Part shown: in pieces, positions 1,787-18,091 of the stretch | Position numbering within the stretch: the stretch's first letter is position 1 | How the letters are laid out: each line of letters starts with the position of its first letter | Source: Polaromonas sp. | GTDB taxonomy: Bacteria; Pseudomonadota; Gammaproteobacteria; Burkholderiales; Burkholderiaceae_C | Assembly: GCA_021737975.1 (NCBI GenBank) | Contig: JAIPCZ010000009.1 | Span: forward strand, 1-64,000 | Reading direction: 5' to 3' | Length of the DNA: 64,000 nucleotides | Position numbers and translations under genes: made by a program | Notes under the pieces: model-generated | What the model was told of the DNA's origin: nothing | Database searches by the model: none | Seen by the model: only the letters and a program-made list of their open reading frames with translations

Positions 1787-1829
1787 GTCGGAGTCTCCTG
1801 GTTTTATGCTTGAAAATAGGAAGGCAGAG

Positions 1830-3323: not shown

Positions 3324-3334
3324 GGTGTGGGTGC

Positions 3335-4069: not shown

Positions 4070-4106
4070 GGGCAAACCTGCAAGTTCGTTGGCGTCAAAT
4101 CAAGAA

Positions 4107-4439: not shown

Positions 4440-4482
4440 GGGGTTCTCCAGTTAAAAATAAATATCAGGGTGAGAATCGGGC

Positions 4483-4782
4483 TCACAGCCACGACTGCGA
4501 GGTGGGGTATTTCTCGACCAGGTCGACGAAACCGGCGTAGTCCACCGGGGTAATGCCGTCCAGCAGCCTGGCCGTCATGCCGCGGGCATCAAGGTCGGGC
4601 TGCAGCACAAACAGGCTGAGTTTGGCGCCGGCCTGGCGCATACGCTCGGCGGTGGCGCTGCCTTGCGTGGCGGCGTAAACAGCATCTTCAATGAGCAGTA
4701 CGGCGTGGCCGGCTTGCGCCATGCGCAGGCAGCTCTCGAGCGCGTTGGTGGCAAAGGGTGATTTATTAACGATGTGCAACAT
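4483..4782 (-). CDS. dsrH: DsrH/TusB-family subunit of the DsrEFH sulfurtransferase
   Basis: A 99-aa protein of the DsrH/TusB family, beginning MLHIVNKSPF with a cysteine at residue 18 (LESCLR), matching the conserved DsrH cysteine. It forms the alpha2beta2gamma2 DsrEFH complex with the two preceding products and helps move sulfur to DsrC. The gene follows dsrF by 15 nt. Small size and position make the call clear. Confidence 0.94.
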   Translation of the reverse strand: MLHIVNKSPFATNALESCLRMAQAGHAVLLIEDAVYAATQGSATAERMRQAGAKLSLFVLQPDLDARGMTARLLDGITPVDYAGFVDLVEKYPTSQSWL

Positions 4783-4797
4783 GACTGGTTCCTATTC

Positions 4798-5193
4798 TTA
4801 AAAGCTCAGGACCACGTCCTGCTGCGCCATCAGTTCACCCATTTGCTGGTCGTTGAGCACCTCGACGGGCACCAGCAGGTCGGCTTCGGTGAGGCCGCGC
4901 TGGTCCAGCGAGGCCTGGTCGACGTAAAGCTTCTCGATGTCGTAGCCCTCCAGTGCGCGGTAGCTGGGCGAAAAATTCTTGATGCCGATGCCCTTGGTCT
5001 GCTGCCCCTTGGCCAGCTCATAAACGCCATCGTCCATGAACACCAGGCTTACGTCCTGGTCGAAGGTGGCGGTGATCAGCACCACCTCCAGGCTTTCGAG
5101 GGCGTAGATGGTGCCGTAGGGGGCCTTGCGGTTGACAAACATGAATTTCTTCACTTTGGGGCCGCTCGGTGCAGTGCTTTGTTGTTCACTCAT
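4798..5193 (-). CDS. dsrF: DsrF/TusC-family subunit of the DsrEFH sulfurtransferase
   Basis: A 131-aa DsrF/TusC-like protein. It lacks an active-site cysteine, as expected for this subunit, and carries the FVNRKAPYG start of the family fold after a short polar N-terminal extension. It pairs with DsrE and DsrH in the sulfur-relay hexamer. It is 21 nt downstream of dsrE and 15 nt upstream of dsrH. No anomalies were seen. Confidence 0.93.
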   Translation of the reverse strand: MSEQQSTAPSGPKVKKFMFVNRKAPYGTIYALESLEVVLITATFDQDVSLVFMDDGVYELAKGQQTKGIGIKNFSPSYRALEGYDIEKLYVDQASLDQRGLTEADLLVPVEVLNDQQMGELMAQQDVVLSF

Positions 5194-5214
5194 GGAGTTT
5201 TGCTCTTTAACGGG

Positions 5215-5574
5215 TTAATCGCCAAACGTGACCAGGCGGTCCGCCTTGATGCCACTGTCCACCAGCTGACCCAGGCCCGAAATACGGAATCCGGGGGCCA
5301 GCACCTCGTCCTTGATGCCGCGGCGCAGGGCTGCGGCCACACACACCACCAGGTCCACCTTGTGCTCAGTCGCCAGCGCCGACCAGCGGTTCACGATGTG
5401 GCGGTCGTCCTGCGGCGGCTCGGTGAGCCGGGTCGCGTTGTTGACGCCGTCGTGGTAGAAAAACACGCGCTGAATGGTGTGACCCTTGGCCAGGGCGGCC
5501 ACGGCAAACTGGTAGGCGCTGTCAGACGCCTGGTGCGTGTAGGGACCTTCGTTGACGAGGATGCCGAATTTCAT
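5215..5574 (-). CDS. dsrE: DsrE, catalytic subunit of the DsrEFH sulfurtransferase
   Basis: A 119-aa DsrE/TusD-family protein with Cys78 (VDLVVCVAAALRRGI) at the position of the persulfidated active-site cysteine of Allochromatium DsrE. The N-terminus MKFGILVNEGPY is typical. It accepts sulfane sulfur, probably from TusA, and hands it to DsrC. Presence of dsrE, F and H distinguishes oxidative (reverse) Dsr loci from sulfate-reducer loci. A hairpin of repeat type separates it from dsrB. Confidence 0.96.
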   Translation of the reverse strand: MKFGILVNEGPYTHQASDSAYQFAVAALAKGHTIQRVFFYHDGVNNATRLTEPPQDDRHIVNRWSALATEHKVDLVVCVAAALRRGIKDEVLAPGFRISGLGQLVDSGIKADRLVTFGD

Positions 5575-5593
5575 GTTTTTACCTAGTCAGTTG

Positions 5594-5633
5594 GGGTCAG
5601 AGCAAATTTGCTGCGCAAATCTTGATCTGACCC
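5594..5633. repeat. Hairpin with GGGTCAGA/TCTGACCC arms in the dsrB-dsrE gap
   Basis: Arms GGGTCAGA (5594-5601) and TCTGACCC (5626-5633) enclose a second stem, ATTTGC (5606-5611) with GCAAAT (5615-5620). It fills most of the 67-nt space between the dsrB stop and the dsrE start. There is no T-run, so it is not a classical terminator. It may be a short dispersed palindromic repeat or an intra-operon mRNA processing/stability hairpin. Which of these is not decided by the sequence. Confidence 0.6.
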
Positions 5634-5641
5634 GCAAAGTT

Positions 5642-6712
5642 TTAGAAACGGATATGAGTCGAAGCGTTCAGGCTCGAGCGGGAACCGCGCCAGTCGTCGA
5701 TCAGGTACTTGGTGAACGGCAGGTCGCATTTTTCAAAGAATGCGGGCCAGCCGATGCGCTCGATCCAGTCCGACACCCGCTCCCACGACCGTGCGTCTTC
5801 CTTGTAGGTGTAGAGGATCTTCTTGACCATGGCCGAGACTTCGGGCCAGCGCGGCGGGTTGTTGGGCAGGCCCGAGGCCACCATCTTCATGAAGGTGGGC
5901 TTGCCGCGGGCGTTGGAGTTCTTGCCGCCCACCCAGATCGCCAGCTTGCTGTGCTCGGGGTCGTTGATCTGCATCGGGGGGCAGGGCGGGTAGCAGGCGC
6001 CGCAGCACATGCATTTGGACTCGTCAATTTCCAGCGAAGGCCGGCCGTTGACCATGGCGGGGCGGATGGCTGCCACCGGGCATCGCGCCACCACCGTGGG
6101 GCGCTCGCACATGTTGGCCACCAGGTCGTGGTTGATCTTGGGCGGCTTGGTGTGCTGCACCACGATGGCAATGTCGGCCTGGCCGCCGCAGTTGATCTCG
6201 CAGCAGGAGGTGGACAGGTGCACGCGGTTGGGCATGTCTTCCTTGATGAACTCGGCGTGCAGGTCATCCATCAGGGCCTTGACGGCGCCCGAGGCGTCAG
6301 TGCCCGGAATGTCGCAGTGCAGCCAGCCCTGGGTGTGGGCAATGGCCGACACCGAGTTGCCGGTGCCACCCACCGGGAAACCGTTGTTGGTCAGTGCGTC
6401 GACCAGCGGCTCGACGCGCGCCGGGTCGGTCACCATGTACTCAATGTTGGAGCGGATGGTGAAGCGCACATGGCCGTCGGCATATTCGTCGGCAATGTCG
6501 CACAGCTTGCGGATGGTGAAGAGGTCCATCTGGCGCTGGGTGCCGGCACGCACGGTCCAGATCTGGTCGCCGCTGTGGGCGACGTGATGCAGCACGCCCG
6601 GACGCGGCCGGTCGTGGTACTTCCAGTTGCCATAGTTCTTGGCCATCAACGGATGCAAAAACTGCTTGTTGTCCGGAACGCCGCTCTCGATGGGGGTACG
6701 CATAGTTGCCAT
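5642..6712 (-). CDS. dsrB: DsrB, beta subunit of reverse dissimilatory sulfite reductase
   Basis: A 356-aa siroheme/4Fe-4S sulfite reductase beta subunit. The coupled siroheme-cluster ligand region reads STSCCEINCGG, and a ferredoxin insert reads CMCCGACYPPCPP. With DsrA it forms the cytoplasmic alpha2beta2 enzyme that, in this gene context, oxidises DsrC-bound sulfur to sulfite. The start at 6712 is preceded by only a weak purine-rich site, suggesting translational coupling to dsrA 36 nt upstream. Length is normal for the family. Confidence 0.97.
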   Translation of the reverse strand: MATMRTPIESGVPDNKQFLHPLMAKNYGNWKYHDRPRPGVLHHVAHSGDQIWTVRAGTQRQMDLFTIRKLCDIADEYADGHVRFTIRSNIEYMVTDPARVEPLVDALTNNGFPVGGTGNSVSAIAHTQGWLHCDIPGTDASGAVKALMDDLHAEFIKEDMPNRVHLSTSCCEINCGGQADIAIVVQHTKPPKINHDLVANMCERPTVVARCPVAAIRPAMVNGRPSLEIDESKCMCCGACYPPCPPMQINDPEHSKLAIWVGGKNSNARGKPTFMKMVASGLPNNPPRWPEVSAMVKKILYTYKEDARSWERVSDWIERIGWPAFFEKCDLPFTKYLIDDWRGSRSSLNASTHIRF

Positions 6713-6748
6713 GGTGATCTTTCTTAATCAGTTGGGGACATGCCGGCT

Positions 6749-8026
6749 TCAGGCGGCTTTGCGGGCCTTGATCTTGGCCACTTCATCGTCCCAGCCGTCG
6801 GTTCGGACATAGGGATTGGTGCGTGGCGTGGAGACCATGTTGGGGTCGATCTCGACCTCAATGCCCTCCAGGAAGTTGATCAGGCCAATACGCTCGATCA
6901 TCTCGCCGGTGCGCTCATGCTCGAGCGCGTTTTCGGCAAAAAAGTCGATCGTTTTCTGACCCAGCTCGACCAACGCCTGGTAGTCTTCATCGGTCTTCAT
7001 GGGCATGAAAGGCATGACCACGGTGCCCATCAGGTCGCCGATCTTGAGGGTGCGCTTGCCACCCATCAGAACCGTGACGCCCTTGTCGACGCCGGTCGCC
7101 AGCGCGCCGGTCATGACGTTGATGCAGTGCATGCAGCGCACGCAGTTGCCGTTGTCGATCTCCAGGCAATGGCTGTCGCTGACCTTGACGCTGGAGATCT
7201 TGTCGCCAGTCGCCACATCCTTGACTTCCTTGAGCATGATGGCCTTGGTCGGGCAGCGGCTGACCACGTCATTGACCAATTCGGTCATGCCGTGTTTTTC
7301 GAACCACTTGCGCGCCAGGGCTTCGTCGGTGCGGATGTTGTCGCGCCAGGTGCCGATGACGGCCATGTCGGCGCGCTGGATCGAGTTCATGCAGTCGTTG
7401 GGGCAACCCGAGAATTTGAACTTGAACTTGTAAGGCAGGGCCGGGCGGTGCATGTCGTCCAGGAAGGTGTTGAGCACCTGGCGATGTGCGCGTGCCTCGT
7501 CAAAGCAGGACTGCTCGCAGCGCGCGGCACCGACGCAGGACATGCTGGTGCGCACGGCCGGACCGGCACCGCCGAGGTCGAAGCCGAGTTCGTTGATTTC
7601 GTCAAAAGCGCCCTGCACATTGGCCGTGCTGGCGCCCTGGAACATGATGTCGCCCGACTGGCCGTGGAAGGCAATCAGGCCCGAGCCATGACGCTCCCAG
7701 ATGTCGCACATCTTGCGCAGCACATCGGTGGTGTAGTGCATGCCGGCCGGCGGTTGCACGCGCAGGGTGTGAAATTCCTTGGAAGCCGGGAACATTTCGG
7801 CCACTTCAGAAAAGCGTGGAATCACGCCGCCGCCATAGCCGAACACACCGACCGTGCCACCCTTCCAGTAGCCCTTGCGGGTTTTGTACGAGTGCTCCAA
7901 CTGACCGACCAGGTCGGTCATGTAATCGCTGTCTTTGGCCAGTCGCTTCAGACCGGTGACAAAGCTGGGCCATGGACCGCTTTCAAGCTGGTCAAGCATG
8001 GGGGTGTCGTGTTGCTTAATGCTCAT
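6749..8026 (-). CDS. dsrA: DsrA, alpha subunit of reverse dissimilatory sulfite reductase
   Basis: A 425-aa protein with the C-X5-C...C-X3-C siroheme-4Fe-4S motif (CVGAARC and CPNDC) and a ferredoxin domain (CVRCMHCINV). The open frame extends upstream to 8260, but the ATG at 8026 has a strong AGGAGA site and gives the family length; the upstream extension would cover the conserved control region. It is the first gene of the dsr operon. The oxidative direction is inferred from dsrEFH, dsrL and the lack of sulfate-reducer genes, not from DsrA alone. Confidence 0.97.
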   Translation of the reverse strand: MSIKQHDTPMLDQLESGPWPSFVTGLKRLAKDSDYMTDLVGQLEHSYKTRKGYWKGGTVGVFGYGGGVIPRFSEVAEMFPASKEFHTLRVQPPAGMHYTTDVLRKMCDIWERHGSGLIAFHGQSGDIMFQGASTANVQGAFDEINELGFDLGGAGPAVRTSMSCVGAARCEQSCFDEARAHRQVLNTFLDDMHRPALPYKFKFKFSGCPNDCMNSIQRADMAVIGTWRDNIRTDEALARKWFEKHGMTELVNDVVSRCPTKAIMLKEVKDVATGDKISSVKVSDSHCLEIDNGNCVRCMHCINVMTGALATGVDKGVTVLMGGKRTLKIGDLMGTVVMPFMPMKTDEDYQALVELGQKTIDFFAENALEHERTGEMIERIGLINFLEGIEVEIDPNMVSTPRTNPYVRTDGWDDEVAKIKARKAA

Positions 8027-8350
8027 TGAGTGTCTCCTGTCGTGGGCGCGCACATCTTGCGCTGATTCGTCGAACCGGGTGTGTTGATGTCCTGGCTGCC
8101 AAATGCGCCGCGACCTCAACCGTGGGGCAAATAGTACGGGCCAGGCCGGGGTGTCTGCTATCCCCCTCGTTGGGTATTTGGGGCTACCCATATGGGTTAT
8201 ATGCCCCCACCCGTCCCGGTAATAGACGACGGGGCCCGACTTTGCGCCCAATAGCGGCATGTGTGATGCAGGGCAATTCCCAGCCCGTTAGCTCTGCTCG
8301 CACGCGCTCTAAACTTGCTTTTTTCATTTTTTCGTCCAACGATTCACACC
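8027..8350. promoter_or_regulatory. Divergent control region between dsrA and the accessory operon
   Basis: This 324-bp gene-free stretch separates dsrA (leftward) from the rightward accessory operon. It holds the palindrome ACCCATATGGGT (8186-8197) inside a 42-bp conserved element (8187-8228), and a partial inverted repeat TGGGTA (8171-8176)/TACCCA (8185-8190). TACTAT on the minus strand (8131-8136) and TAAACT on the plus strand (8310-8315) are possible -10 boxes, but no convincing -35 boxes accompany them. This fits activator-dependent promoters. Promoter positions are guesses; the palindrome is directly visible. Confidence 0.65.
8187..8228 (+). promoter_or_regulatory. Conserved 42-bp element, copy 1, upstream of the accessory operon
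   Basis: On the plus strand the block runs CCCATATGGG, then a C-rich CCCCACCC segment, then CGGTAATAGACG. It matches 17638-17597 (minus strand) at 35 of 42 positions by my hand alignment, with no gaps. The element points toward the gene at 8351 and ends 122 nt before it. The second copy points toward tusA and ends 115 nt before it. The conserved blocks, orientation and distance argue for a shared regulator binding site and perhaps core promoter. Confidence 0.75.
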
Positions 8351-8590
8351 ATGCCCACCCTGACAACGCTGGTTAAATTCAATATTCCCGTGGGTTTGCA
8401 GGTCATCGAGCTGCAACAAGTGGACTATGAAGGCGCCAACATGCGACAGCTGCGCACCCGCATCCGCGAAAAGAGCCGCTTCACCGTGTTTGACATCGAT
8501 CCGCAGTCAGCCCGGCTCTGGGGCGAGGCCCTGCTGCGCTGGGCTGCCGAGCAGCCCGACAACCAGATCCCGGCGGAGCCGTCTGAATGA
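8351..8590 (+). CDS. 79-aa protein of unknown function, first gene of the dsr-linked accessory operon
   Basis: The ATG at 8351 was chosen because the in-frame upstream TTG extension (from 8315) adds an unlikely hydrophobic leader. The protein has an N-terminal segment VGLQVIELQQVDYEG, a basic middle and an acidic C-terminus; there is no signal peptide, membrane helix or cysteine. It overlaps the Cas6-like gene by 4 nt, so the two are translationally coupled. I do not recognise its family. Its position beside dsrA suggests a cytoplasmic role tied to sulfur oxidation, which is inference only. Confidence 0.8.
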   Translation: MPTLTTLVKFNIPVGLQVIELQQVDYEGANMRQLRTRIREKSRFTVFDIDPQSARLWGEALLRWAAEQPDNQIPAEPSE

Positions 8591-9201
8591 GCGCCCTTGC
8601 CCTTGAGCCCTGCCCCACGGTCGACCTGATTTTTCCGATCAGCGGGCGCTTTTTGCCGCGTGACCATGCCCAGGCGCTCAAGGACGCGCTGTGCCGCGCC
8701 TGGCCCTGGCTTGACGCCGAGCCTCTGGCGGGCGTGCAGGCCATCAAACTGGTGCCCGGTCTGGAGGCGCAGGCCATGCTGTCGGGGCGAGCCAAACTGC
8801 TGCTGCGCTTGTCGCGCCAGCGCGCAACCGAACTGATCAACGGCAGGGCGATTGACCTGCAGGTGGCGGGCCAGGCCCTGCACCTGGGCGTGCCGCATGT
8901 GCGCGAACTGGTGCCCCACACCACGCTCTATGCCTACCATGTGGCGGCCGCCGATGCCGATGAAGCGGCCTTCATGGCCGGTGTCACACAGGCCTTGTCG
9001 GGGCTGGGTGTGGGCGGTGAGCGTGTCTGCGGCAAACGCCAGCAACTGGCGCTGGCCCGCGGCACGGTCACCACCTTCAGCCTGATGCTGCACGGCCTGG
9101 CGCCCGAGCCGTCGCTGCACCTGCAGCAGCACGGCATCGGCCCGCACCGGCTGTTGGGCTGTGGAATTTTCATACCCCACAAGTCTGCCGCTGCAGTTTA
9201 A
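8587..9201 (+). CDS. Cas6/Cmx6-like RAMP-fold protein in the dsr locus
   Basis: A 204-aa protein resembling the Cas6 variant Cmx6 (type I-MYXAN) family. It has an N-terminal segment VDLIFPISGRFLPRDHAQ, and a C-terminal GIGPHRLLGCGIFIPHK that has the form of the glycine-rich RAMP loop closing the Cas6 ferredoxin fold. Cas6 proteins bind and cut CRISPR repeat RNA. Here no repeat array or other cas gene is visible in 64 kb, and the gene is locked by overlaps into a sulfur operon. A non-CRISPR role, possibly RNA binding, is likely. Family membership rests on motif recognition and should be tested by structure prediction; catalytic residues cannot be assigned. Confidence 0.7.
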   Translation: MSALALEPCPTVDLIFPISGRFLPRDHAQALKDALCRAWPWLDAEPLAGVQAIKLVPGLEAQAMLSGRAKLLLRLSRQRATELINGRAIDLQVAGQALHLGVPHVRELVPHTTLYAYHVAAADADEAAFMAGVTQALSGLGVGGERVCGKRQQLALARGTVTTFSLMLHGLAPEPSLHLQQHGIGPHRLLGCGIFIPHKSAAAV

Positions 9202-9232
9202 GAATTTATCAACGAAACCAAGGAGAAGTTCA

Positions 9233-9562
9233 ATGGCTTACACCATCAATGGCACCGAGTATGAAACCGACGAACAGGGTTTTCTATTGGAGCCAGTGTA
9301 TGAAGATGACGCAGTTCGGGTGATCGCCGACGCTGAAGGCATCACCTTGACCGATGCCCACTGGGAAGTCATCAACTATCTGCGCGAGCAGTACCGCGAA
9401 CATGGCCACACCCCCAATTTTCGCAACATGCTCAAGAGTTTTGGTGAAGTTCACCCCGGTGTGGACAGCAAGTACCTCTACGACTTGTTCCCGATTGGCC
9501 CTGCCAAGCAGGGCCCCAAGGTGGCGGCCTTGCCGCAGCCGCTGGGCAAGGGCGGCTACTGA
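9233..9562 (+). CDS. DsrC-fold paralogue lacking both redox cysteines (RspA-like)
   Basis: A 109-aa protein clearly homologous to DsrC over its whole length (ETDEQGFL, HWEVINYLREQY, SKYLYDLFPIGPAKQ), with AAGGAGAAG before the ATG at 9233. The C-terminal arm ends ALPQPLGKGGY: the positions of DsrC Cys98 and Cys109 are proline and lysine. It therefore cannot carry sulfur the DsrC way. DsrC homologues without cysteines have been called RspA and are suspected of regulatory roles. Position inside the accessory operon next to a putative RNA-binding protein suggests a regulatory or decoy function, which is inference. Confidence 0.9.
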   Translation: MAYTINGTEYETDEQGFLLEPVYEDDAVRVIADAEGITLTDAHWEVINYLREQYREHGHTPNFRNMLKSFGEVHPGVDSKYLYDLFPIGPAKQGPKVAALPQPLGKGGY

Positions 9563-9613
9563 TATGGCTCTGCGCTTGTCCATTTTGCAGCCTCTGCAAC
9601 TTCGAGGCAATGT

Positions 9614-10231
9614 ATGGCCAAGCTGAGAATCAAGAGCCAGTGGTTTCGCGACAGCGGCGCCAAGACACCGCAGCAGAACGCCAGCGCCATGGCCTTCATC
9701 ACTTGGCGCGTGGCACAGAACACGCTCAATCAAATGCGCACGGCGCGGTTCGATATCGAGATCGGGCCGCAGTATTTTGCTTTCACCCACGAGGTGCTGG
9801 TGTTTCTGACCCAGGTGATCGACCGCATGGCCCACGCCCGCATGGAAGATGCCGAGCGGGCCGAGTTCATGAACGCCCTGGTGCAGCGCGTGGCGGAAAT
9901 CCTGCAGGACAACGAAGACCGCCTGATGGGTGTGCCAGCCGCAGGGCAAGCCAGTCACTATGAGCAGTTCATTGACCTGTTCAACGAGCTGTCCGAACAC
10001 TACGCGGACTTCGGCTTTGATGCCAAGGGGCCCGATTTTGCCTTTGTGCGCTATCTCGGGCACCGCATCGAGGCGCTGATGCCCCAGAAAGACCAGCGCT
10101 GGGTGGTGGACCAGATCATGGCGAGCGAAGTGCCCGATGCGCTGGACATGATCCAGCGCGGCATGGACGGCGTCTTGTCGACCGAACCCAGGCCCAGGCG
10201 TGCATCGCGCGCCGGCGTTTCGGGTGATTGA
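9614..10231 (+). CDS. 205-aa alpha-helical protein of unknown function
   Basis: A soluble, mostly helical protein with no cysteines, no signal peptide and no membrane span. Its middle is rich in charged residues (HARMEDAERAEFMNALVQRV, LVQRVAEILQDNEDRL), followed by an FNELSEHYADFGFD segment and a basic, low-complexity C-terminus. It lies 51 nt after the RspA-like gene and 11 nt before the dioxygenase. I do not recognise the family. Tight packing indicates cotranscription with the sulfur accessory genes. Confidence 0.85.
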   Translation: MAKLRIKSQWFRDSGAKTPQQNASAMAFITWRVAQNTLNQMRTARFDIEIGPQYFAFTHEVLVFLTQVIDRMAHARMEDAERAEFMNALVQRVAEILQDNEDRLMGVPAAGQASHYEQFIDLFNELSEHYADFGFDAKGPDFAFVRYLGHRIEALMPQKDQRWVVDQIMASEVPDALDMIQRGMDGVLSTEPRPRRASRAGVSGD

Positions 10232-10242
10232 AGTAGCGCGTC

Positions 10243-11142
10243 ATGACCGACCCGTTTGACCTTTCACAAACCAGCGCCTACCAGGCTTGGCGCGACGCCA
10301 AATTGGCCAGTCAGCCGCGCCAAGCGGGTGAACTGATCGTCGACGTGGCCGACCCCCAGGCCTTGACCGAGCCTGAGCGCGAGGCTCTTTTGCAGCGCTG
10401 CGCTGTGGCCAACATGGCCATTTACCGCAGCCCGGTGGTTTCCGAGGACAAAGCCATTCCGATCCAGTTGGCGCGCCAACTCGGCCTGTACCAGCTCGAT
10501 GGCAACTGGCTTGCCGACGAAGACGGTATTTCGCCGATTGCCGTGGCGGCACCCACGGGTGAGCGTACCGCGTTCATCCCCTACACCAACCGCCCGATCA
10601 AGTGGCATACCGACGGTTATTACCATCCCGAGACCCGCCCAATCCGGGCCATGGTGCTGCATTGCGTGCGCCCGGCGCGCCAAGGCGGGGACACGGCACT
10701 GATGAACCACGAGATGGCCTATATCGCCCTGCGGGAGGCCAACCCCGACTGGGTCCGCGCCCTGATGGCGCCTGAAGCCATGACCATTCCCGCGCGGCTC
10801 GACGACGACGGCATGGCGCGCCCCGAACAAGCCGGGCCGGTGTTCATGGTCGATGCGCTGAGCGGCCAATTGCACATGCGCTACACCGCACGCACGCGCA
10901 GCATTGTCTGGAAGGACGATGCCGCCACTCAAGACGCGGTGGCGTTTCTGGCTGATTTTCTGGCCAGCGACAGCCCCCATATTTTTCGTTTGCGCCTGGA
11001 AGCCGGCATGGGCCTGGTGTGCAACAACGTGTTGCATGACCGCGCTGGCTTCGATGACGACCCCCAGGCGCCCCGCCTGCTGTACCGGGCGCGTTATCTG
11101 GACCGGATCGCCCGGCCCACCACAGGAGTCATCACCCCATGA
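10243..11142 (+). CDS. TauD/TfdA-family Fe(II)/2-oxoglutarate-dependent dioxygenase
   Basis: A 299-aa protein with the facial-triad HxD motif at His122-Asp124 (KWHTDG) and a distal His265 (NVLHDRAGF), followed by arginines of the 2-oxoglutarate-binding strand (RLLYRARY). These enzymes hydroxylate substrates with O2 and release succinate. TauD frees sulfite from taurine, so an organosulfur substrate is tempting, but the residues seen do not decide it. The stop overlaps the start of the next gene (ATGA), giving strong operon coupling. The substrate is unknown. Confidence 0.88.
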   Translation: MTDPFDLSQTSAYQAWRDAKLASQPRQAGELIVDVADPQALTEPEREALLQRCAVANMAIYRSPVVSEDKAIPIQLARQLGLYQLDGNWLADEDGISPIAVAAPTGERTAFIPYTNRPIKWHTDGYYHPETRPIRAMVLHCVRPARQGGDTALMNHEMAYIALREANPDWVRALMAPEAMTIPARLDDDGMARPEQAGPVFMVDALSGQLHMRYTARTRSIVWKDDAATQDAVAFLADFLASDSPHIFRLRLEAGMGLVCNNVLHDRAGFDDDPQAPRLLYRARYLDRIARPTTGVITP

Positions 11143-12614
11143 GCCATCAGGTCAGTGTTTGGCGTGCCGCCCAGTTGCTGGGCGTGGCACGCGGCGTGCT
11201 GCAACAAAAGGTACGCGACGGCAGCCTGGTGCTGAACGACGGCTGGGTCTCGACCGACGTGTTGCTGCAGTTGTACCCGAATGCCCAACTGGAAGAGTCG
11301 GGCCTGCTGGAACGGGTGTCGCAAATCCGTGATGAAGCCTTTGGCAAGCGCGTGCGCGAGCGCCTGCTGCCGACCCAGGAGGTGCTGGCACAGCGTCTTT
11401 TCGCGCAAAGCCAGGAGCTGGCCGATGTGCGCAAACACCTCCAGCGTTACCACGAACTCGTGGTGAGCCTGCAAAAGGAAATTCGTCAACAGCTGAGCGA
11501 GCAGCCCGCTGCCGCCAGTTGGCTGGCGTTGGAACAACAGATCACGCAGGGGCTGGCCCAGGCGCTAGCCACCGAACCGGTGGACATGCTGGAGGTGATG
11601 GACGATATGCTCAAAATCATGACGGCCCAGGTCACGGTGCGCCCCAGCGGCCACCAATTCCCGGTGGAGGGGCGCGCCAACCTGTTGCAGGCGGGCCTGC
11701 ACGCGGGGCTCAAACTCAATTACGGCTGTGGCAACGGCAGTTGCGGCATGTGCAAGGTGCGCGTGATTTCGGGCGACGTGGCCAAAACCCAGCACTTTGA
11801 CTACGCGCTGTCCGAGGCTGAAAAAGCCCAGGGCTATACCCTGATGTGCTGCCACACCGCCGCCAGCAGCGAACTGACGCTGGAGTTGCTTGAAGCCTGC
11901 AACCCGCGTGACATTCCCGAGCAAATGATTGCCACCCAGGTGCGTGCCATCACCAAGCTGGCGCCAGACACCGTGTTGCTGCACCTGCAAACCCCGCGCA
12001 CCCACCGCTTGCGCTTTCTGGCAGGCCAGTCGGTGCAACTGGGCTGGACACTGGCCGGGCATGAGGACGCCTCGACCAGCTACCCGCTGGCCAGTTGCCC
12101 TTGTGATGAACGCAATCTGCTGTTCTTTATCACGCGCAACGCGATCGACGGTTTTGCCCAGCGCCTGTTTGCCGGTGACATCAAACCCGGTGCCACCGTC
12201 ACCGTGCTTGGCCCGAGCGGCGAATTTGTCCTGGCCGAAGGCCACCGCCCGCTGGTGTTTGCCGCTTGCGACGCCGGTTTTGGCCCGATCAAGAGCCTTA
12301 TCGAACACGCCTTGTCGCTCGACGCCGCACCCTCGCTGTCGCTGTTCTGGCTGGCAACCCGCCCGGACGGCCACTTCTACAGCAACCAGTGCCGTGCCTG
12401 GTCGGAAGCGCTGGACCAGTTTGAGTATGAATTGGAGACCCACCCCGACGCTGCACTGGGAGCCTGGCAGATTGCCCAGGCCATGCGCGCCGACTTGTTT
12501 GATATTGACTGCGACTTTTATCTGGCCGGCCCCATCGAATTTGTCCGCGCCCTGCATGACGAATTGCGCACCTCCAGCGTGGCTGAATCCCAGATCGCCA
12601 TCCTGGTGCTTTGA
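11139..12614 (+). CDS. Fusion protein: HTH-like domain, coiled coil, 2Fe-2S ferredoxin and FNR-type reductase
   Basis: A 491-aa protein with four parts. Residues 1-50 look like a small DNA-binding or helix-turn-helix module (VSVWRAAQLLGVARGVLQQKV). Residues 60-125 are charged and probably coiled coil. Residues 160-250 are a plant-type 2Fe-2S ferredoxin with Cys197, Cys202 and Cys205, and Cys237/238 for the fourth ligand. Residues 255-491 are a ferredoxin-NADP reductase-like flavodomain with STSYPLAS and a C-terminal nucleotide region. Electron transfer to the neighbouring dioxygenase is a natural partner role. The HTH-like head also suggests redox-responsive regulation. Both roles are inference. 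Confidence 0.85.
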   Translation: MSHQVSVWRAAQLLGVARGVLQQKVRDGSLVLNDGWVSTDVLLQLYPNAQLEESGLLERVSQIRDEAFGKRVRERLLPTQEVLAQRLFAQSQELADVRKHLQRYHELVVSLQKEIRQQLSEQPAAASWLALEQQITQGLAQALATEPVDMLEVMDDMLKIMTAQVTVRPSGHQFPVEGRANLLQAGLHAGLKLNYGCGNGSCGMCKVRVISGDVAKTQHFDYALSEAEKAQGYTLMCCHTAASSELTLELLEACNPRDIPEQMIATQVRAITKLAPDTVLLHLQTPRTHRLRFLAGQSVQLGWTLAGHEDASTSYPLASCPCDERNLLFFITRNAIDGFAQRLFAGDIKPGATVTVLGPSGEFVLAEGHRPLVFAACDAGFGPIKSLIEHALSLDAAPSLSLFWLATRPDGHFYSNQCRAWSEALDQFEYELETHPDAALGAWQIAQAMRADLFDIDCDFYLAGPIEFVRALHDELRTSSVAESQIAILVL

Positions 12615-12638
12615 CCCTCCTCACAACCCCAAAAACCC

Positions 12639-13019
12639 ATGCAAACCGAAGCCTCCGATGTCAGTAAGACCTATGTTGAAGCGACCCAATCCGCCTTTGA
12701 CGCCACTTTGCCGGAATGTGCTGGCGGCGAGTCTTTTGCGCTGATGGTGCAGGGCTTCAGCATGGCGCCCGAATTTCTGGAGGGCGAAATCATCCTGATC
12801 GAACCCGAAGGCCTAGCCAAAGATGGCTCCTATGTGCTGGCCATGCATGCGCAGGAATGGACCTTCCGGCAACTGCTGCGCACAGAGACCGGTTGGTTGC
12901 TGCACCCGCTGAACCCGGCCTTTCCCGATGCGGCCATTCCTGACTTGTCATCCATCCACGGCGTCATCATTCAAAAGGCCCTGCCCGGCCGTCGCCGCGC
13001 CTCCAAGCATTACGTCTGA
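12639..13019 (+). CDS. S24/LexA-like peptidase-fold protein with catalytic lysine replaced
   Basis: A 126-aa protein matching the LexA/UmuD C-terminal fold. The nucleophile motif is GFSMAPEFLEGE with Ser41. The strand that normally holds the general-base lysine (as in TVKRL of UmuD) reads EWTFRQL here, with Arg77 in that place. No DNA-binding domain is present. It is probably a non-proteolytic sensor or adaptor, unless arginine can substitute. It is the sixth product of coupling distance in the operon, 24 nt after the reductase gene. Confidence 0.75.
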   Translation: MQTEASDVSKTYVEATQSAFDATLPECAGGESFALMVQGFSMAPEFLEGEIILIEPEGLAKDGSYVLAMHAQEWTFRQLLRTETGWLLHPLNPAFPDAAIPDLSSIHGVIIQKALPGRRRASKHYV

Positions 13020-13051
13020 CGCCGCCTGTCAGTCACTCACCTGCCCTTGCC

Positions 13052-13270
13052 ATGCCTTATTACATTTACCGCGTCAAACCCTTTACCCAGCTGGACCAAC
13101 TCAGCGCGCATGACACCTTTGCCGAGGCCTCCAGCCTTGCCAAGTCGCTGCGCCTGCAGCCTGACCTGCCCGCAACGGACAAAATCAAGGTGATTTTTGC
13201 CGACACCCCATTGCAGGCCGAAGACCTGCTGTGCCAGGTGCGCACGGCAGGCCCAAAGGGCGACGACTGA
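13052..13270 (+). CDS. 72-aa protein of unknown function in the accessory operon
   Basis: A small protein beginning MPYYIYRVKPF, with a central helix (FAEASSLAKSLR), a strand IKVIFAD and one cysteine near the end (DLLCQV). There is no signal or membrane segment. The gene follows the S24-like gene by 32 nt and precedes the cysteine-rich protein by 11 nt. I do not recognise the family. Proper start, stop and coding-like codon use in a packed operon support it being real. Confidence 0.75.
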   Translation: MPYYIYRVKPFTQLDQLSAHDTFAEASSLAKSLRLQPDLPATDKIKVIFADTPLQAEDLLCQVRTAGPKGDD

Positions 13271-13281
13271 AGTGCTGAAAC

Positions 13282-13740
13282 ATGGTGGATGAAGCAGCTT
13301 TTCACGCATCACGCGAGCGCCTCAACCCCAGCCCCTGCGTCTTTTCAAAGGCACTCCTTTCCGGCTGCGCCAGTTGCAGCCTGGAGCAGCGCCATGCCCT
13401 GGCCGAGCGCGAGGTGGTGGCCTGCACCCTGCCGGTGGCGCACATCAACTGCAGTACTCTAAAAGACCTGTTTTACGAGCGCGCCACCTTTGTGCTGCGC
13501 CTACCGCGCCCGGCCACCGAGATCCCGCATCAGGCCGCGATGAAGCTGAGCTGTGGTGGACTGAACGGATTACAAGCAGCATTGGCAGCGCCCAGCACCG
13601 ATGTTCACGCCATGGTGCAGCTGGCGCACAGCCGGTTCGACAGCCTGCTCGACCTGCCCTGGCAAACCATTGTGGAGCACATCGCCGGTTGGCAGATTCG
13701 GCGGCGCGCGCCTGTTGGGAGCAAACCCGAGGGTCGTTAA
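13282..13740 (+). CDS. 152-aa cysteine-rich protein of unknown function
   Basis: The N-terminal half contains Cys19, Cys29, Cys32, Cys48 and Cys57 (PCVFSK, SGCASCS, VACTL, INCST), a pattern compatible with a zinc or Fe-S site. A C-terminal helical part ends in basic residues. No ribosome site is evident before the ATG at 13282; reading may be coupled to the upstream stop. It is the last gene of the operon and faces the convergent tusE-like gene across a repeat-rich spacer. The function is unknown. Confidence 0.75.
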   Translation: MVDEAAFHASRERLNPSPCVFSKALLSGCASCSLEQRHALAEREVVACTLPVAHINCSTLKDLFYERATFVLRLPRPATEIPHQAAMKLSCGGLNGLQAALAAPSTDVHAMVQLAHSRFDSLLDLPWQTIVEHIAGWQIRRRAPVGSKPEGR

Positions 13741-14054
13741 AGATTGCACTGTCAGTTAGTTGGTGTTGCCGCGTTCAAACCTTGGTGATGTGCTGCGCGC
13801 GGCAACCGGTAGGGGCGGCCACCTCATACTGGGGTACCAGAAATCGGTGACCACCCCTACCGGTTGCCACGCGACCTCGTGATATGCAGAGGTTTTGAAG
13901 GCAAATACAGCTCTATGCACCAGCGTCAACACTGCCACTAGCGCAGTGGCTGGCTTTGGGGGCTGACGATTTCTGGTACTCCAGTATGAGGAAGCCGCCA
14001 AAGCCAGTCGCTGCGCGGTTACAGCTAAAAAATCCGAATTGGAATTTTTAGCCC
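13741..14054. repeat. Nested inverted repeats in the convergent spacer between two sulfur operons
   Basis: No gene is supported in these 314 bp. A perfect 15-bp inverted repeat pairs 13801-13815 (GGCAACCGGTAGGGG) with 13854-13868. Overlapping it, 13822-13846 pairs with 13967-13991 at 24 of 25 positions, extendable to about 32 bp per arm with GCCGCC. The arms thus form alternative hairpins of about 68 and 180 nt. The layout resembles a small MITE-like palindromic element or a bidirectional transcription barrier. No transposase or clear T-run is present. Confidence 0.7.
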
Positions 14055-14348
14055 CTAAACGCAACCCGTAGGCTTGGGCAAACCGCCGTACTTGGTGATC
14101 GGCTTCATCGGTCCGGTCATCCACAGTTTGAAGACGCTGTTCTGGTCTTCGTCGATATATTTGGCAAATTTACGAATAGGCGGCACGCTGCCGAACTCTT
14201 CGTAATACGCGCGGGCCTTGAGGATGTGTGACCACTTGACATCGTCGAGCTCGTAACCGTCGGCCTCGGCCATGGCACGGCCGATTTCCTCAGTCCAGTC
14301 ACCCATGTCGGTCAGGTAACCGTCGCCGTCGCGTTCTGGCAGATTCAT
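14055..14348 (-). CDS. TusE/DsrC-family protein with a single C-terminal cysteine
   Basis: A 97-aa DsrC-fold protein ending GGLPKPTGCV, so the penultimate cysteine (Cys96) is kept. The upstream DsrC cysteine position is threonine (PMKPITKYGG). One-cysteine DsrC homologues are TusE-like sulfur acceptors. The start overlaps the thioredoxin stop (ATGA, 14345-14348), making it the last gene of the tusA-yeeE operon. It probably accepts sulfur from TusA or DsrE2, or from thiosulfate-derived sulfane. Direct evidence for tRNA thiolation is absent here. Confidence 0.88.
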   Translation of the reverse strand: MNLPERDGDGYLTDMGDWTEEIGRAMAEADGYELDDVKWSHILKARAYYEEFGSVPPIRKFAKYIDEDQNSVFKLWMTGPMKPITKYGGLPKPTGCV

Positions 14349-14713
14349 TGTGTGTTCTCCGATTGGGGTGATTTGGCATGGTGCGCCAGCAGCTGGTCCA
14401 GGAAACGGCGCAAGAAGCCCTCGGTCTGCATGCCGTGAAAACGGTCGGTGACCTGGCCATGGCTGTAGCCGATCACGGTCGGAAACCCCTTGGCCTGGTG
14501 GCGCCCGGCGATGCGCATGTTTTCATCGGCATCGACTTTGGCGAGCACAAAACGGCCGGCGTACTCCTGTGCCAGACGCTCCAGCAAAGGGGTCAGCACG
14601 CGGCACGGGCTGCACCAGTCGGCGCCAATATCGAGGACCACCGGCAGTTGGTGGGAACGCAACACCACCGCGGCCTCAAAATCAGCTTCGGTGACGTCAA
14701 CAACAAAAGGCAT
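14345..14713 (-). CDS. Thioredoxin-family protein with WCSPC active site
   Basis: A 122-aa thioredoxin fold with the redox motif ADWCSPCRVL (Cys34, Cys37), followed by KVDADEN and the cis-proline KGFPTV. The true start is the ATG at 14713. A longer frame reading through yeeE in another phase is spurious. The C-terminus is extended by a polar tail relative to TrxA. It lies 5 nt after the yeeE stop and overlaps the TusE-like gene, so it is likely the reductant for thiosulfate or persulfide handling in this operon. Confidence 0.9.
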   Translation of the reverse strand: MPFVVDVTEADFEAAVVLRSHQLPVVLDIGADWCSPCRVLTPLLERLAQEYAGRFVLAKVDADENMRIAGRHQAKGFPTVIGYSHGQVTDRFHGMQTEGFLRRFLDQLLAHHAKSPQSENTQ

Positions 14714-14718
14714 CGGTT

Positions 14719-15828
14719 TCAAGCGCGCCAGTTCTGGTAGTGCATGGTGGCAGCGGCACCCCCAATGATGCCGGCCAGCACGATGAAGGAGCCCAGCGCC
14801 AGGGTCGAGATGCCTGTGAGCCCCTGGCCCACGGTGCAACCCAGGGCGGTGACGCCGCCAAAGCCCATCAGCACGGCGCCCAGCAACTGGGTGCGCAAGT
14901 CTTCCATCGAGGCAAAGCCCTCCCAGCGAAACTGGCGGCTGGCCAAGGCGTAAGCCAGGGAGCCCAGCACCACACCGAGCGCGCTGGCAATGCCAAAGCT
15001 CACATGCAGGGACTGGTCGGTCCAGAGCATCAGCAGCTCCAGGCTGAAGGCCGTGGGTGCCACAAAACTGAAGGACTCCAGCGTGCGGGTATTGGTGGCA
15101 AAGTAGACCATTTCCATGGTCTCGGGGCTTTCGCCATGACCCAGGTGGCCGGTGAGGTACCAGCCGGAAACAATCAGCAGGCCCAGCACCACGGCCCCCA
15201 GCCATTGAACGACATTGCCGCGAAAGCGCTTGTCTTTCAGGGCAAAAGCGGCCAGCCCCAGGCTCAGCATAGCCACGCTGGCGAGCAAGGCAGGTTTGGC
15301 AGCCAGGCCGGTGAGTTTGGCCAGAATTTGCGGTAAAGTTTGCCCTGCCAGACCCCACTGCGCCAGGTCCAGCGTGACCGGGTCGAGGTAGCTCGCGCGC
15401 CACTGACCGAACAGGCCCTTGAGCGTCATGTAGGCCGAGATCGCCACGAACACCAGCACCACCAGCGAGCGCAGGCTGCCCGCGCCCAGGCGCACCAGGT
15501 TCTTATTGACGCAGCCGGCCGCAATGGTCATGCCAACGCCGAAGATCACACCGCCCAGCACCAGCGACAGCCAGGGCAGGCTGGGGCGGACATAAATCGA
15601 CTTCGACAGGTCAATCAACCCAGACTGGTACAACAGATTGGTGCCGAGCATTGCAACGGCCATCGCCAGCAGCCACATGCGCATGCGGCCCCAGTGCGCC
15701 ATGTTGACCACGTCCGAGATCGCGCCCATGGTGCAGAAATTGGTCTTGTTGGCCACGGCCCCAAAAATAAAGGCCAGGGCGAAGCCGCCCAAAACCACCA
15801 TGCTGCTCAAATCGCTTGGCTCGCTCAT
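14719..15828 (-). CDS. YeeE/YedE (TsuA-type) thiosulfate or sulfur-compound importer
   Basis: A 369-aa polytopic membrane protein with about nine to ten hydrophobic segments. The three cysteines used for thiosulfate relay in the YeeE/TsuA family are visible: Cys32 (NFCTMG), Cys106 (AAGCVNK) and Cys331 (ALGCTVGQG). Import of thiosulfate-like substrates into the cytoplasm would feed the thioredoxin and TusA/TusE relay encoded beside it. The gene follows a secreted protein by 25 nt. The exact substrate is inferred from the family. Confidence 0.9.
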   Translation of the reverse strand: MSEPSDLSSMVVLGGFALAFIFGAVANKTNFCTMGAISDVVNMAHWGRMRMWLLAMAVAMLGTNLLYQSGLIDLSKSIYVRPSLPWLSLVLGGVIFGVGMTIAAGCVNKNLVRLGAGSLRSLVVLVFVAISAYMTLKGLFGQWRASYLDPVTLDLAQWGLAGQTLPQILAKLTGLAAKPALLASVAMLSLGLAAFALKDKRFRGNVVQWLGAVVLGLLIVSGWYLTGHLGHGESPETMEMVYFATNTRTLESFSFVAPTAFSLELLMLWTDQSLHVSFGIASALGVVLGSLAYALASRQFRWEGFASMEDLRTQLLGAVLMGFGGVTALGCTVGQGLTGISTLALGSFIVLAGIIGGAAATMHYQNWRA

Positions 15829-15853
15829 TTACGGCTCCTGGAAAGGATTTGAA

Positions 15854-16741
15854 TTATTGACCCGGGGCACTGGCCGTGGCCAGTCGGACCATGGTGCTGC
15901 GAATGGCCTCAGGCGCATTGATGATGGTCATGAATTGACCCATGCCCAAAGCCGGCCAGGCCAGCGCAATGCGGTAGCGTGCATAGAGGGAGTACACCTT
16001 GTTGTCGACAATGAACAACTCGTAGGGCAAGCCGGCCGGATGGTCAGCACCAATCTTGTTCACCCACCAGCCCTCGCCGTCGCCGCCGCTGTTCATGGCC
16101 ACGCCAAATACCGCCATTTTCTTGTCGGACATGACCACCTCATAGACCTGCCGGGTGTCGCCCAGGCCCTTGGCCAGGTTTCCCTGCACTGCCTTGAGCG
16201 CCTCGTCGAAACTGGCGTAGCTGGCAAGCTCGCTGTTGGCTGAGTCAAAACGTTCCATGCCAAACATGTAACGGTAGTCGGTCAACTCGGCCTGCGGCAC
16301 ATCGCCACCAAAACCAGTGCCTTCGCCCAAGGCCCTGACCAGTCGTTTCTGCACCGAATTAACGGCCTCTTGCGCTCCCGAGAACTTGCCGCGCAGGTAA
16401 GCCCGGTACCAGTAATCCGGGTTCATGTAAGACACGCTGCCGTCACTGCCAATGCCAACACGGATGCCTGCCGCGACGATGCCGCTGCTCGGGCCCGTGG
16501 CGCGAATGGCCGCCAGCATGGCAGGGTCTGAGACCACCAGACTGGCGCGCCCGGCGACGCCCTTGGGTGTGTGCTGCCCGAGGACGGTAAAGCCCTCTGC
16601 CTGAAGTCTTTTCTCGACTTGGGCCAACTGGGCCGGCAAGTCGCCCGCCGGCAGCTTGCCGGCGTGGGTATAGGGCGACAGGGCCCAACTCAGTTGGGCC
16701 GCACACAACAGGGCAGCGCCCAGAAGCAGTCGTTTGATCAT
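15854..16741 (-). CDS. Secreted protein of unknown function in the tusA-yeeE operon
   Basis: A 295-aa protein with a clear signal peptide (MIKRLLLGAALLCAAQLSWA with an Ala-x-Ala-like end). The mature part starts with SPYTHAGKLPAGDL and has a DUF302-like hint around residues 45-75 (GFTVLGQHTPKG, ASLVVSDPAM), though I cannot confirm that. The C-terminal half contains many aromatic residues (YWYRAYLRGKF, GEGWWVNKIG). It is 3 nt downstream of the DsrE2-like gene. It may bind a periplasmic sulfur compound for YeeE, which is inference. Confidence 0.8.
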   Translation of the reverse strand: MIKRLLLGAALLCAAQLSWALSPYTHAGKLPAGDLPAQLAQVEKRLQAEGFTVLGQHTPKGVAGRASLVVSDPAMLAAIRATGPSSGIVAAGIRVGIGSDGSVSYMNPDYWYRAYLRGKFSGAQEAVNSVQKRLVRALGEGTGFGGDVPQAELTDYRYMFGMERFDSANSELASYASFDEALKAVQGNLAKGLGDTRQVYEVVMSDKKMAVFGVAMNSGGDGEGWWVNKIGADHPAGLPYELFIVDNKVYSLYARYRIALAWPALGMGQFMTIINAPEAIRSTMVRLATASAPGQ

Positions 16742-16744
16742 GGC

Positions 16745-17215
16745 TTAAATGAACAGGCAAACGTCGGATTCACCGGCGAACTTCATGAACGTGGCGGCAC
16801 CGCCATATTCAACATCCTTGATGAATTCGCTGGTCTCGAACTCGAACAGGTCCACGGTCATCTGGCAGGCGACAAACTTGACATCAGACTCAAGGCAAAT
16901 GTCTCGCAGTTCCTGCAGTGACGCCACACCCTTGGACTTCATCTTATTTTTCATCATCATGGTCGCCATGGATTCCATGCCGGGCAGCATTTGCATCATC
17001 ACCGGCATCGGCACAGGCATCGGCATGGCCGGGTTGGCGAGCGGGCTGATCTTGATGCCATCGAGATTTTTGCGCAGCAACTGCAAGCCATAGAAGGTGA
17101 AAAATATCTGCACATCCCATCCCAGCGCGGCGGCGGTGGAGGCCAGAATAAACGGGGGGTAAGCCATGTCCAGGGTACCCTTGGTGGCGATCAGGGCCAT
17201 TTTTTTAGCTGCCAT
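16745..17215 (-). CDS. DsrE2-like (DsrE/F-family) protein with a methionine-rich loop
   Basis: A 156-aa DsrE/DsrF-superfamily protein. After a hydrophobic N-terminal half comes a striking loop at residues 62-95 with about a dozen methionines (AMPMPVPMPVMMQM...). Cys107 and Cys117 follow in a C-X9-C arrangement, plus Cys153. tusA-dsrE2 pairs move sulfane sulfur toward Dsr or Hdr systems. It is 38 nt after tusA. The Met-rich loop could be a membrane or metal contact; no function is shown by sequence. Confidence 0.85.
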   Translation of the reverse strand: MAAKKMALIATKGTLDMAYPPFILASTAAALGWDVQIFFTFYGLQLLRKNLDGIKISPLANPAMPMPVPMPVMMQMLPGMESMATMMMKNKMKSKGVASLQELRDICLESDVKFVACQMTVDLFEFETSEFIKDVEYGGAATFMKFAGESDVCLFI

Positions 17216-17253
17216 TTGTGCGCTCCGATTGAGGTTGAGGAGATCCCGGAGGA

Positions 17254-17481
17254 TCAGGCTTTCTTGAGGAAAAACACAAATTTGCTGTTTTCGCTCCCCT
17301 GCTCCAGCAAATCATTGCCGGTTTGCTCGGCAAAAGCCGCCATGTCGCAGACCGAACCGGGGTCGGTGGCGATCACTTTCAATACCTGGCCCGAACTCAT
17401 GTCTGCCAGCGCTTTTTTCGTGCGGACAATGGGAAGCGGGCAAGAAAGGCCGGACGCGTCAAATTCTTTGTTAAATTCCAT
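17254..17481 (-). CDS. tusA: TusA sulfur-carrier protein
   Basis: A 75-aa TusA/SirA-family protein with the CPxP signature (Cys14 in SCPLP) and the typical ending KFVFFLKKA. In sulfur oxidisers TusA carries persulfide from rhodanese or DsrE2 to DsrEFH. It is first of the operon tusA-dsrE2-secreted-yeeE-trx-tusE. The conserved 42-bp element lies 115 nt upstream. A -10-like AT-rich stretch (AGAATAAT, 17513-17520) sits between. Confidence 0.95.
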   Translation of the reverse strand: MEFNKEFDASGLSCPLPIVRTKKALADMSSGQVLKVIATDPGSVCDMAAFAEQTGNDLLEQGSENSKFVFFLKKA

Positions 17482-17596
17482 GGGATGTCTCCGTGAGTGA
17501 ATGGCTTGCTGCAGAATAATCGTTTAGTGACACCACCCATCCCTTGCAAAAGAGATGGCGTTGCGACTGGGAGATTTTTGATGCGCTGGCCCAAAG

Positions 17597-17641
17597 CGTC
17601 TATTACCGCAAAGGGTGGGGCCAGGTAGCCCATATGGGCTA
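17597..17641 (-). promoter_or_regulatory. Conserved element, copy 2, upstream of tusA, with a 16-bp perfect palindrome
   Basis: TAGCCCATATGGGCTA (17626-17641) is a perfect palindrome. Read on the minus strand, CCCATATGGG is followed by a GCCCCACCC segment and CGGTAATAGACG, ending at 17597. The 42-bp block matches 8187-8228 at 35 positions. Orientation relative to the downstream gene is the same in both copies. It lies between the arsR 3' end and tusA, so tusA can be transcribed apart from arsR. Confidence 0.75.
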
Positions 17642-17658
17642 TGCGATCGCTGAACCGG

Positions 17659-18003: not shown

Positions 18004-18091
18004 GACGCTGTGTCCTTATCTTTCATGGCGCTACTGTAAGGCAGCCTCGTACTCTATCAAACATTGGATGCGCGGCTTTCATTAAACTTAC

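Follow-up and report, generated by a model that had tools for sequence, protein, structure and literature searches.

Many beta- and gammaproteobacteria oxidize sulfur by means of the oxidative (reverse) dissimilatory sulfite reductase (rDsr) pathway. In a stretch of 64,000 nucleotides from Polaromonas sp. (assembly GCA_021737975.1, contig JAIPCZ010000009.1, positions 1 to 64,000; hereafter the window), we analysed nine plus-strand open reading frames (ORFs), genes 1 to 9, which span positions 8351-13740 and diverge from dsrA (6749..8026, minus strand, start at 8026). We find that these genes contain an accessory module of the rDsr pathway, which nearly always accompanies dsrA in the sampled Beta- and Gammaproteobacteria, and whose conserved core consists of a Cas6-family protein (gene 2), a DsrC homologue without cysteine (gene 3), the product of gene 4 and often a TauD-like dioxygenase (gene 5).

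Organisation of the locus

A preliminary description, made from the letters of the window, had read the nine genes as a single plus-strand operon diverging from dsrA, and the ORF coordinates confirm this layout. The junctions from gene 1 to gene 9 measure -4, +31, +51, +11, -4, +24, +32 and +11 nt, which means that at four of the eight, rather than the three claimed, the genes either overlap by 4 nt or lie no more than 11 nt apart. On the minus strand, dsrA (529 bits to TIGR02064, cut-off 393) is followed by dsrB (5642-6712), dsrE, dsrF, dsrH, dsrC, dsrM and dsrK. These genes were assigned with NCBIfam, PRK models being left uncounted; dsrA, dsrB, dsrE, dsrF, dsrH, the dsrC family and dsrK all exceed their cut-offs, and DsrM, with 163 bits, falls below its cut-off of 300. 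The assembly that holds the window is 2.6 Mb long and estimated to be 69.5% complete, and its nearest named relatives among the matches listed are Rhodoferax metagenome-assembled genomes.

We compared the window with three sets of loci (numbered L below; genomes are numbered G). The order loci, 60 regions read together with the window itself, were chosen by gene 4, which has 62 matches in 300 genomes, two of which were left out, one of them in the window's own genome (G000); the class loci comprise 40 regions, taken from 39 of 90 gene-4 genomes; and the named loci (L092-L171) are the 80 that ranked highest among 586 for closeness to the window's Cas6-like protein. Order and named loci coincide in five cases (L057/L169, L055/L170, L075/L160, L082/L150 and L083/L148), and the 152 loci that hold both dsrA and Cas6 are 147 distinct ones once the duplicates are counted.

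Proteins of the conserved part of the operon

Gene 2 (8587..9201, plus strand) encodes the protein that had been called a Cas6-like RAMP protein, and it exceeds the cut-offs of both Pfam Cas6 (182 bits, cut-off 26.7) and TIGR02807 (143 bits, cut-off 98.85). The profile of its family matches PDB 8fcj, the Cas6 of a type I-B CRISPR-associated transposon (CAST), with an E-value of 2e-32. Judged by these profile matches, gene 2 is a genuine Cas6 relative. In an alignment of 160 Cas6-like rows, R74 and E126 are conserved at 1.00, and conservation is 0.99-1.00 for the glycines in the C-terminal loop (GIGPHRLLGCGIF in the window); the candidate catalytic residue His27, part of a DH motif, is present in the window's protein. 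Among the nine proteins, PADLOC matches gene 2 only (six Cas6 models), and it finds no defence system. In a tree of 72 rows, the 69 proteins from the dsr samples are split from three cyanobacterial proteins by a branch with support 100/99. One of these three, from Gloeobacter, has no annotated cas neighbours. The protein annotated as Cas6/Cmx6 on plasmid pGMOR1 of Gloeobacter morelensis (L216, 4971-5762) lies near a gene of the phosphoadenosine phosphosulfate reductase family, with no annotated cas gene in 10.6 kb, and is possibly another non-CRISPR Cas6.

Gene 3 (9233..9562, plus strand) belongs to the DsrC family and, as had been claimed, contains no cysteine. Canonical DsrC ends in KQACKIAGLPKPTGC(I/V), where the gene-3 homologues read ...AGLPxPxGKGGY. 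Of 149 homologue ORFs, 143 end in KGGY and 119 in GKGGY, the ending found in the window; the six without KGGY include two truncated by contig ends, one with GKAGY and one that is a different paralogue with GCS. There is no cysteine among the last 20 residues in 138 of the 149, compared with at least two in 131 of 132 canonical DsrC ORFs; some cysteine counts of the first DsrC tally were inflated by over-long ORF starts. The consensus is identical to canonical DsrC at 20 of 27 positions of the C-terminal arm and at 31 of 78 in the remainder, and both arm cysteines are lost, which lends weight to the earlier idea of a decoy DsrC. Gene 3 may correspond to RspA, a name for DsrC homologues without the conserved cysteines, proposed as regulators. 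A DsrC homologue of this kind may be a marker of sulfur oxidizers. PMC5944118 lists, without comment there, THSYN_22565, a DsrC-like gene with a locus number near that of the dsr cluster.

Gene 1 (8351..8590, plus strand) had been listed as an unknown protein of 79 residues, a label that no longer wholly holds, as it matches DUF6967 (88 bits, cut-off 27). The predicted DUF6967 model has four strands and a helix, and 12 of its first 20 fold matches are PUR nucleic-acid-binding repeats (Foldseek probability up to 0.98, template modelling score up to 0.71 by target, E-value 0.46 or worse); no sequence match to PUR was found.

Gene 4 (9614..10231, plus strand; 205 residues) retains its label of an unknown protein, with no family above cut-off. 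Its predicted structure consists of six helices (predicted local distance difference test score 87.5); the fold search returned no PDB match at E <= 0.001 (best 0.18) and the best E-value of the sequence search was 0.13.

Gene 5 (10243..11142, plus strand) falls in the TauD family, as the preliminary description had it. H122, D124, H265 and R278 are conserved at 1.00 in 130 rows, a set that we take to match the HxD...H triad and arginine of Fe(II)/2-oxoglutarate dioxygenases. By family and position, gene 5 is probably DsrQ, a TauD-like gene upstream of dsr whose naming is credited to Lenk et al. 2012 in PMC7596348.

Co-occurrence with dsrA and conservation of gene order

The preliminary description had tied the operon to rDsr, a link that would fail if other rDsr genomes lacked the genes or had them dispersed. 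Co-occurrence favours the link for genes 2 and 4 in both samples, and for genes 1, 3 and 5 the neighbourhood supports it: among the 60 order loci, gene 1 is found in 49, gene 3 in 57 and gene 5 in 47. In the order sample of 300 genomes, 64 have dsrA, 62 gene 4 and 58 Cas6 (TIGR02807), and every genome with gene 4 or Cas6 is among the 64; two of the dsrA-positive genomes lack gene 4 and six lack a Cas6 match. In the class sample of 274 genomes, dsrA is found in 94, the Cas6-like gene in 91 and gene 4 in 90, with dsrA shared by 87 of the Cas6 genomes and 85 of the gene-4 genomes (Fisher p 1.9e-57 and 1.4e-53, respectively, shared ancestry being ignored). Five class genomes have gene 4 without dsrA, four of them also Cas6; in G425, which has Cas6 and no dsrA, the contig (L189) stops at gene 5, just where dsrA would be expected next. 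In the phylum sample, in which dsrA was not searched, the Cas6-like gene occurs in one of 219 genomes, the window's own.

Within the window's family (f1), dsrA is present in the window's genome and in G264 among nine same-family genomes listed, and locus L032 of G264 also carries all nine genes; the locus is thus patchy in this family and has therefore perhaps moved or been lost as a block.

The Cas6 gene is divergent from dsrA and at most 4.5 kb away in 149 of the 152 loci with both genes (52 of 53 order, 74 of 76 named and 23 of 23 class loci). Of the three others, L121 and L157 reflect ORFs called too long, and in L040 inserted genes separate the two. The usual betaproteobacterial order, with dsrA divergent, is DUF6967, Cas6, DsrC homologue, in many operons a double rhodanese or double TusA protein, gene 4 and TauD; the gammaproteobacterial order is TauD, a 63-residue protein, Cas6, DsrC homologue and a 67-residue protein, while gene 4 lies beyond these or at another place. 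Both Beta- and Gammaproteobacteria preserve the gene order and the divergence from dsrA, which is more than chance would produce. The double rhodanese or TusA protein (two Rhodanese and two TusA stretches, respectively, in a Pfam scan of one example each) separates Cas6 from gene 4 in 48 of the 53 order loci holding both and in 17 of 75 named loci, the latter being mostly close relatives of the window that, like it, have neither. The 63-residue protein occurs in 22 of 40 class loci (for example L195, between gene 5 and Cas6) as well as in L140 and L144, and the 67-residue protein follows the DsrC homologue in 15 of 40; two examples of each, when scanned, had no Pfam family above cut-off. Comparison of DUF6967 with the 63-residue protein (hhalign probability 6.6%, P 0.0055) does not establish homology. 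Three genomes of 1.0-1.1 Mb (L172, L173 and L195) retain TauD, Cas6, the DsrC homologue and gene 4 beside dsrA. In the Chromatiaceae loci L144 (Lamprocystis purpurea) and L140, Cas6 and the DsrC homologue lie beside dsrA, TauD is absent from the locus and gene 4 sits elsewhere in the genome.

A lineage-specific extension

The supposition that all nine genes form one conserved system is not supported: genes 6, 7, 8 and 9 are found in 50, 47, 39 and 26 of the 80 named loci and are nearly absent from the 60 order loci (3, 3, 1 and 1), and we regard them as a lineage-specific local extension. Gene 6 (11139..12614, plus strand) had been described as a helix-turn-helix/2Fe-2S/FNR fusion. Fer2 and FAD_binding_6 are matched, which bears out a 2Fe-2S/FAD reductase, with NAD_binding_1 below its cut-off; the helix-turn-helix is not borne out, as no such Pfam family was reported in the conserved N-terminal extension of about 160 residues, which has the look of a helix-turn-helix and a coiled coil by eye only. 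Gene 7 (12639..13019, plus strand) is a Peptidase_S24 relative in which the position that we take, from the S24 Ser-Lys dyad pattern, to be that of the catalytic lysine holds arginine in 48 of 48 aligned rows, in agreement with the earlier reading of a protein without catalytic lysine; the serine is present in 42 of the 48. Genes 8 (13052..13270, plus strand; 72 residues) and 9 (13282..13740, plus strand; 152 residues, with five cysteines invariant in 27 rows) remain small unknowns with no Pfam family above cut-off.

Between gene 9 and the next operon, the window holds nested long inverted repeats (13796-14052; arms of 51 nt, 37 nt and 24 nt that are 80%, 81% and 88% complementary), perhaps a mobile or repetitive extragenic palindromic (REP)-type element. 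They are followed on the minus strand by a second short DsrC-family protein of 97 residues (14055-14348), which ends in GGLPKPTGCV and, having the penultimate cysteine only, is TusE-like. Downstream of it on the same strand lie a Sulf_transp protein, a DsrE2-family protein and TusA.

The shared upstream region

An alignment of 56 betaproteobacterial intergenic regions shows a conserved block between dsrA and gene 1 (8156..8256) with imperfect dyad symmetry. Within it lies a palindrome-like motif, CTAYCCANNNGGGYTAT (8184..8200, plus strand), the sole site at up to one mismatch in the assembly. Searched in the same way near the dsrA start, CTAYCCANNNGGGYTAT occurs in 20 of 57 order, 51 of 76 named and 0 of 24 class loci with dsrA (20, 45 and 0 with an earlier, narrower search window). 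Elsewhere in the same loci there are 1, 10 and 0 matches, respectively, plus one in L128, which lacks dsrA. In nine named loci a further copy of the motif lies downstream of the Cas6-like gene, at a distance of about 5-9.5 kb (L100:16571, L107:18197, L111:8930, L112:18251, L125:19492, L135:16482, L139:19241, L145:19447 and L168:18043), perhaps at the TusA/DsrE2 cluster, and a small regulon is possible.

Read on the strand of the dsrA leader, the block (23 sequences) gave a more stable fold than its column-shuffled counterparts, with z of -5.0 and -6.6 for two windows that overlap. Downstream of dsrC, the mean z is -1.5 and the median -0.9 (n=129).

Possible functions of the module

Several constituents of the core have been retained, namely the glycine-rich loop of Cas6, mostly its histidine, the dioxygenase residues and the DsrC arm, and the DsrC cysteines have been lost. 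The explanation that we rank first, tentatively and with more doubt than belief, is that the module regulates rDsr at the level of nucleic acid by reading the DsrC sulfur relay. We place it first because its parts point both to the sulfur relay (the DsrC mimic and the rhodanese/TusA protein) and to nucleic acid (Cas6 and perhaps DUF6967), and because DsrC of Allochromatium vinosum is reported to bind the DNA that lies upstream of the dsr cluster (PMC5944118), and DsrR to take part in the regulation of sulfur oxidation (PMC11406059).

We envisage a Cas6-family protein that would have departed from CRISPR and would now partner the cysteine-less DsrC. The latter would dock through its conserved arm on DsrAB, DsrEFH or DsrK in place of DsrC and so report the load of the sulfur relay. 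The Cas6-like protein would then bind or cut an RNA, most likely dsr mRNA, and thereby set the amount of rDsr, possibly assisted by small partners (DUF6967 here, the 63-residue protein in Gammaproteobacteria). Where present, the rhodanese/TusA partner may feed or sample persulfide, and DsrQ might contribute an oxygen-dependent input. The sensing step and any role of gene 4 are proposed from sequence. A further-reaching reading, which strikes us as rather doubtful, is that the beta- and gammaproteobacterial rDsr systems inherited from their common ancestor a domesticated Cas6 endoribonuclease, which now binds or processes dsr RNA under control of a redox-dead DsrC; the sulfur carrier would then, through its own state, control sulfur oxidation at the level of RNA.

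A number of observations weigh against such a regulator. The candidate catalytic position 27 is histidine in 78% and tyrosine in 15% of the 160 Cas6-like rows, the resemblance of DUF6967 to PUR is not significant by E-value, and DUF6967 is found in just two of 40 class loci. As six dsrA-positive order genomes have no Cas6 match, Cas6 is not strictly required, and five of these six retain gene 4; five dsrA-positive class genomes have neither gene, one of them (G505) listed as 99% complete. No RNA target was found among the dsrA leader, the dsrC flanks and the Rfam scan: pairs in the dsrA-leader block are nearly invariant, with hardly any paired changes, so that a DNA operator and an RNA element are indistinguishable and the block may be a DNA operator; the region upstream of dsrC showed no folded element (n=129, mean z 0.03); and Rfam gave no match in positions 1-20000 of the window.

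Our second-ranked explanation, which we think improbable, is that the module matures or protects rDsrAB: the GKGGY tail of the cysteine-less DsrC would plug the DsrAB channel while the enzyme is assembled or in the absence of sulfur, DsrQ would carry out an oxygen-dependent modification, gene 4 would be a chaperone, and the Cas6-like protein would be a protein-binding RAMP without RNA activity. The kept arm and lost cysteines of the DsrC homologue, the missing His27 in part of the Cas6-like family, the tie to dsrA and the oxidoreductase extension in one lineage would all suit such a role; against it, the glycine-rich loop of Cas6 is nearly invariant, as expected if RNA binding persists, and, more weakly, the predicted DUF6967 fold is nucleic-acid-like. 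Ranked third, and less probable still, is a transcriptional switch in which the two divergent operons would answer to the DsrC homologue and the small proteins, acting at the upstream element, with Cas6 secondary. The conserved dyad-symmetric element, with a core unique in the assembly, argues for a switch, as does RspA, which is described as regulatory, and the DNA binding by DsrC noted above (PMC5944118) points the same way; however, the motif is missing near dsrA in all 24 class loci, 23 of which have Cas6, as it is in 37 of the 57 order loci and 25 of the 76 named ones.

We find it very unlikely that the operon is a sulfonate branch, in which DsrQ frees sulfite from sulfonates and organosulfur is fed into the pathway. 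This proposal for DsrQ is reported in PMC7596348 and agrees with the retained active-site residues of gene 5, but it leaves Cas6, the cysteine-less DsrC and gene 4 unexplained, and no dioxygenase was found in 13 of the 60 order loci chosen by gene 4, some of which are truncated where the contig stops. Hardly credible, finally, is the idea of a solo CRISPR Cas6 whose CRISPR arrays are located at other sites of the genome and whose place beside dsr is accidental. The TIGR02807 Cas6/Cmx6 name, the PADLOC matches and a Cas1 match in 16 of 50 selected Cas6 carriers speak for it; yet Cas1 had no match in the other 34, which include the window's own 69.5%-complete assembly. No CRISPR array was found in the window, and array-like repeats occurred in only two of 180 fetched loci (L048 at ~13000, where no Cas6 was found, and L184 at ~7500-8000, about 9 kb from Cas6), although the script detected its positive control, the array beside the Nostoc Cmx6 (L218). 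The co-occurrence with dsrA contradicts a solo Cas6 as well, and we reject it on the grounds of the Cas1-less carriers, the rarity of arrays, the fixed position beside dsrA and the separate branch of the dsr-linked proteins.

Relation to known systems

A gene set that is nearly universal with dsrA in two samples, even in genomes of 1 Mb, and that includes a CRISPR-type RNA-binding protein offers a direct handle on how the dsr genes are controlled. Our analysis also suggests that an annotation as 'type I-MYXAN Cas6/Cmx6' in these bacteria need not signify CRISPR. The dsr-linked proteins share a fold family and the C-terminal glycine-rich loop with type I-MYXAN Cas6/Cmx6 (TIGR02807) and with 8fcj, which has asparagine in place of the candidate catalytic histidine. 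With two CRISPR-linked Cmx6 proteins, from Synechocystis PCC 6714 and Nostoc MS1, both of which adjoin cas3 and cas8 genes, they have in common the DH motif with that histidine, but the E126 and terminal PHK of the dsr-linked proteins are missing from these two. Unlike those of CRISPR Cas6, the dsr-linked loci lie beside dsrA, and no cas3, cas5, cas7 or cas8 neighbours were seen there.

With DsrC and TusE, gene 3 shares the family and the arm sequence GPAKQ..K.AGLP.P. DsrC has two arm cysteines, however, both of which are replaced in gene 3, where the tail is extended to KGGY, and the penultimate cysteine of TusE is likewise missing (GKGGY instead of GC(I/V)). With RspA, gene 3 shares the lack of redox cysteines and the dsr linkage. 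Given this possible match to RspA and the probable identity of gene 5 with DsrQ, the preliminary description went too far in ascribing no described function to the whole operon. DsrQ resembles gene 5 in its TauD family and its opposite orientation beside dsrAB; PMC7596348 treats DsrQ alone, its text containing no Cas6, CRISPR, DsrC-like or RspA. DsrR and DsrS are, like the module, dsr-linked and accessory, but they are other genes, within the A. vinosum dsrAB operon (PMC3368242). In the extension, the Ser-Lys dyad of the S24 self-cleaving proteases (LexA/UmuD) is broken in gene 7. No link between Cas6 and dsr was found in the open-licence papers searched. No kind of system is known to us that joins a non-CRISPR Cas6 protein with a sulfur-oxidation enzyme; the separate parts of the module belong to known families.

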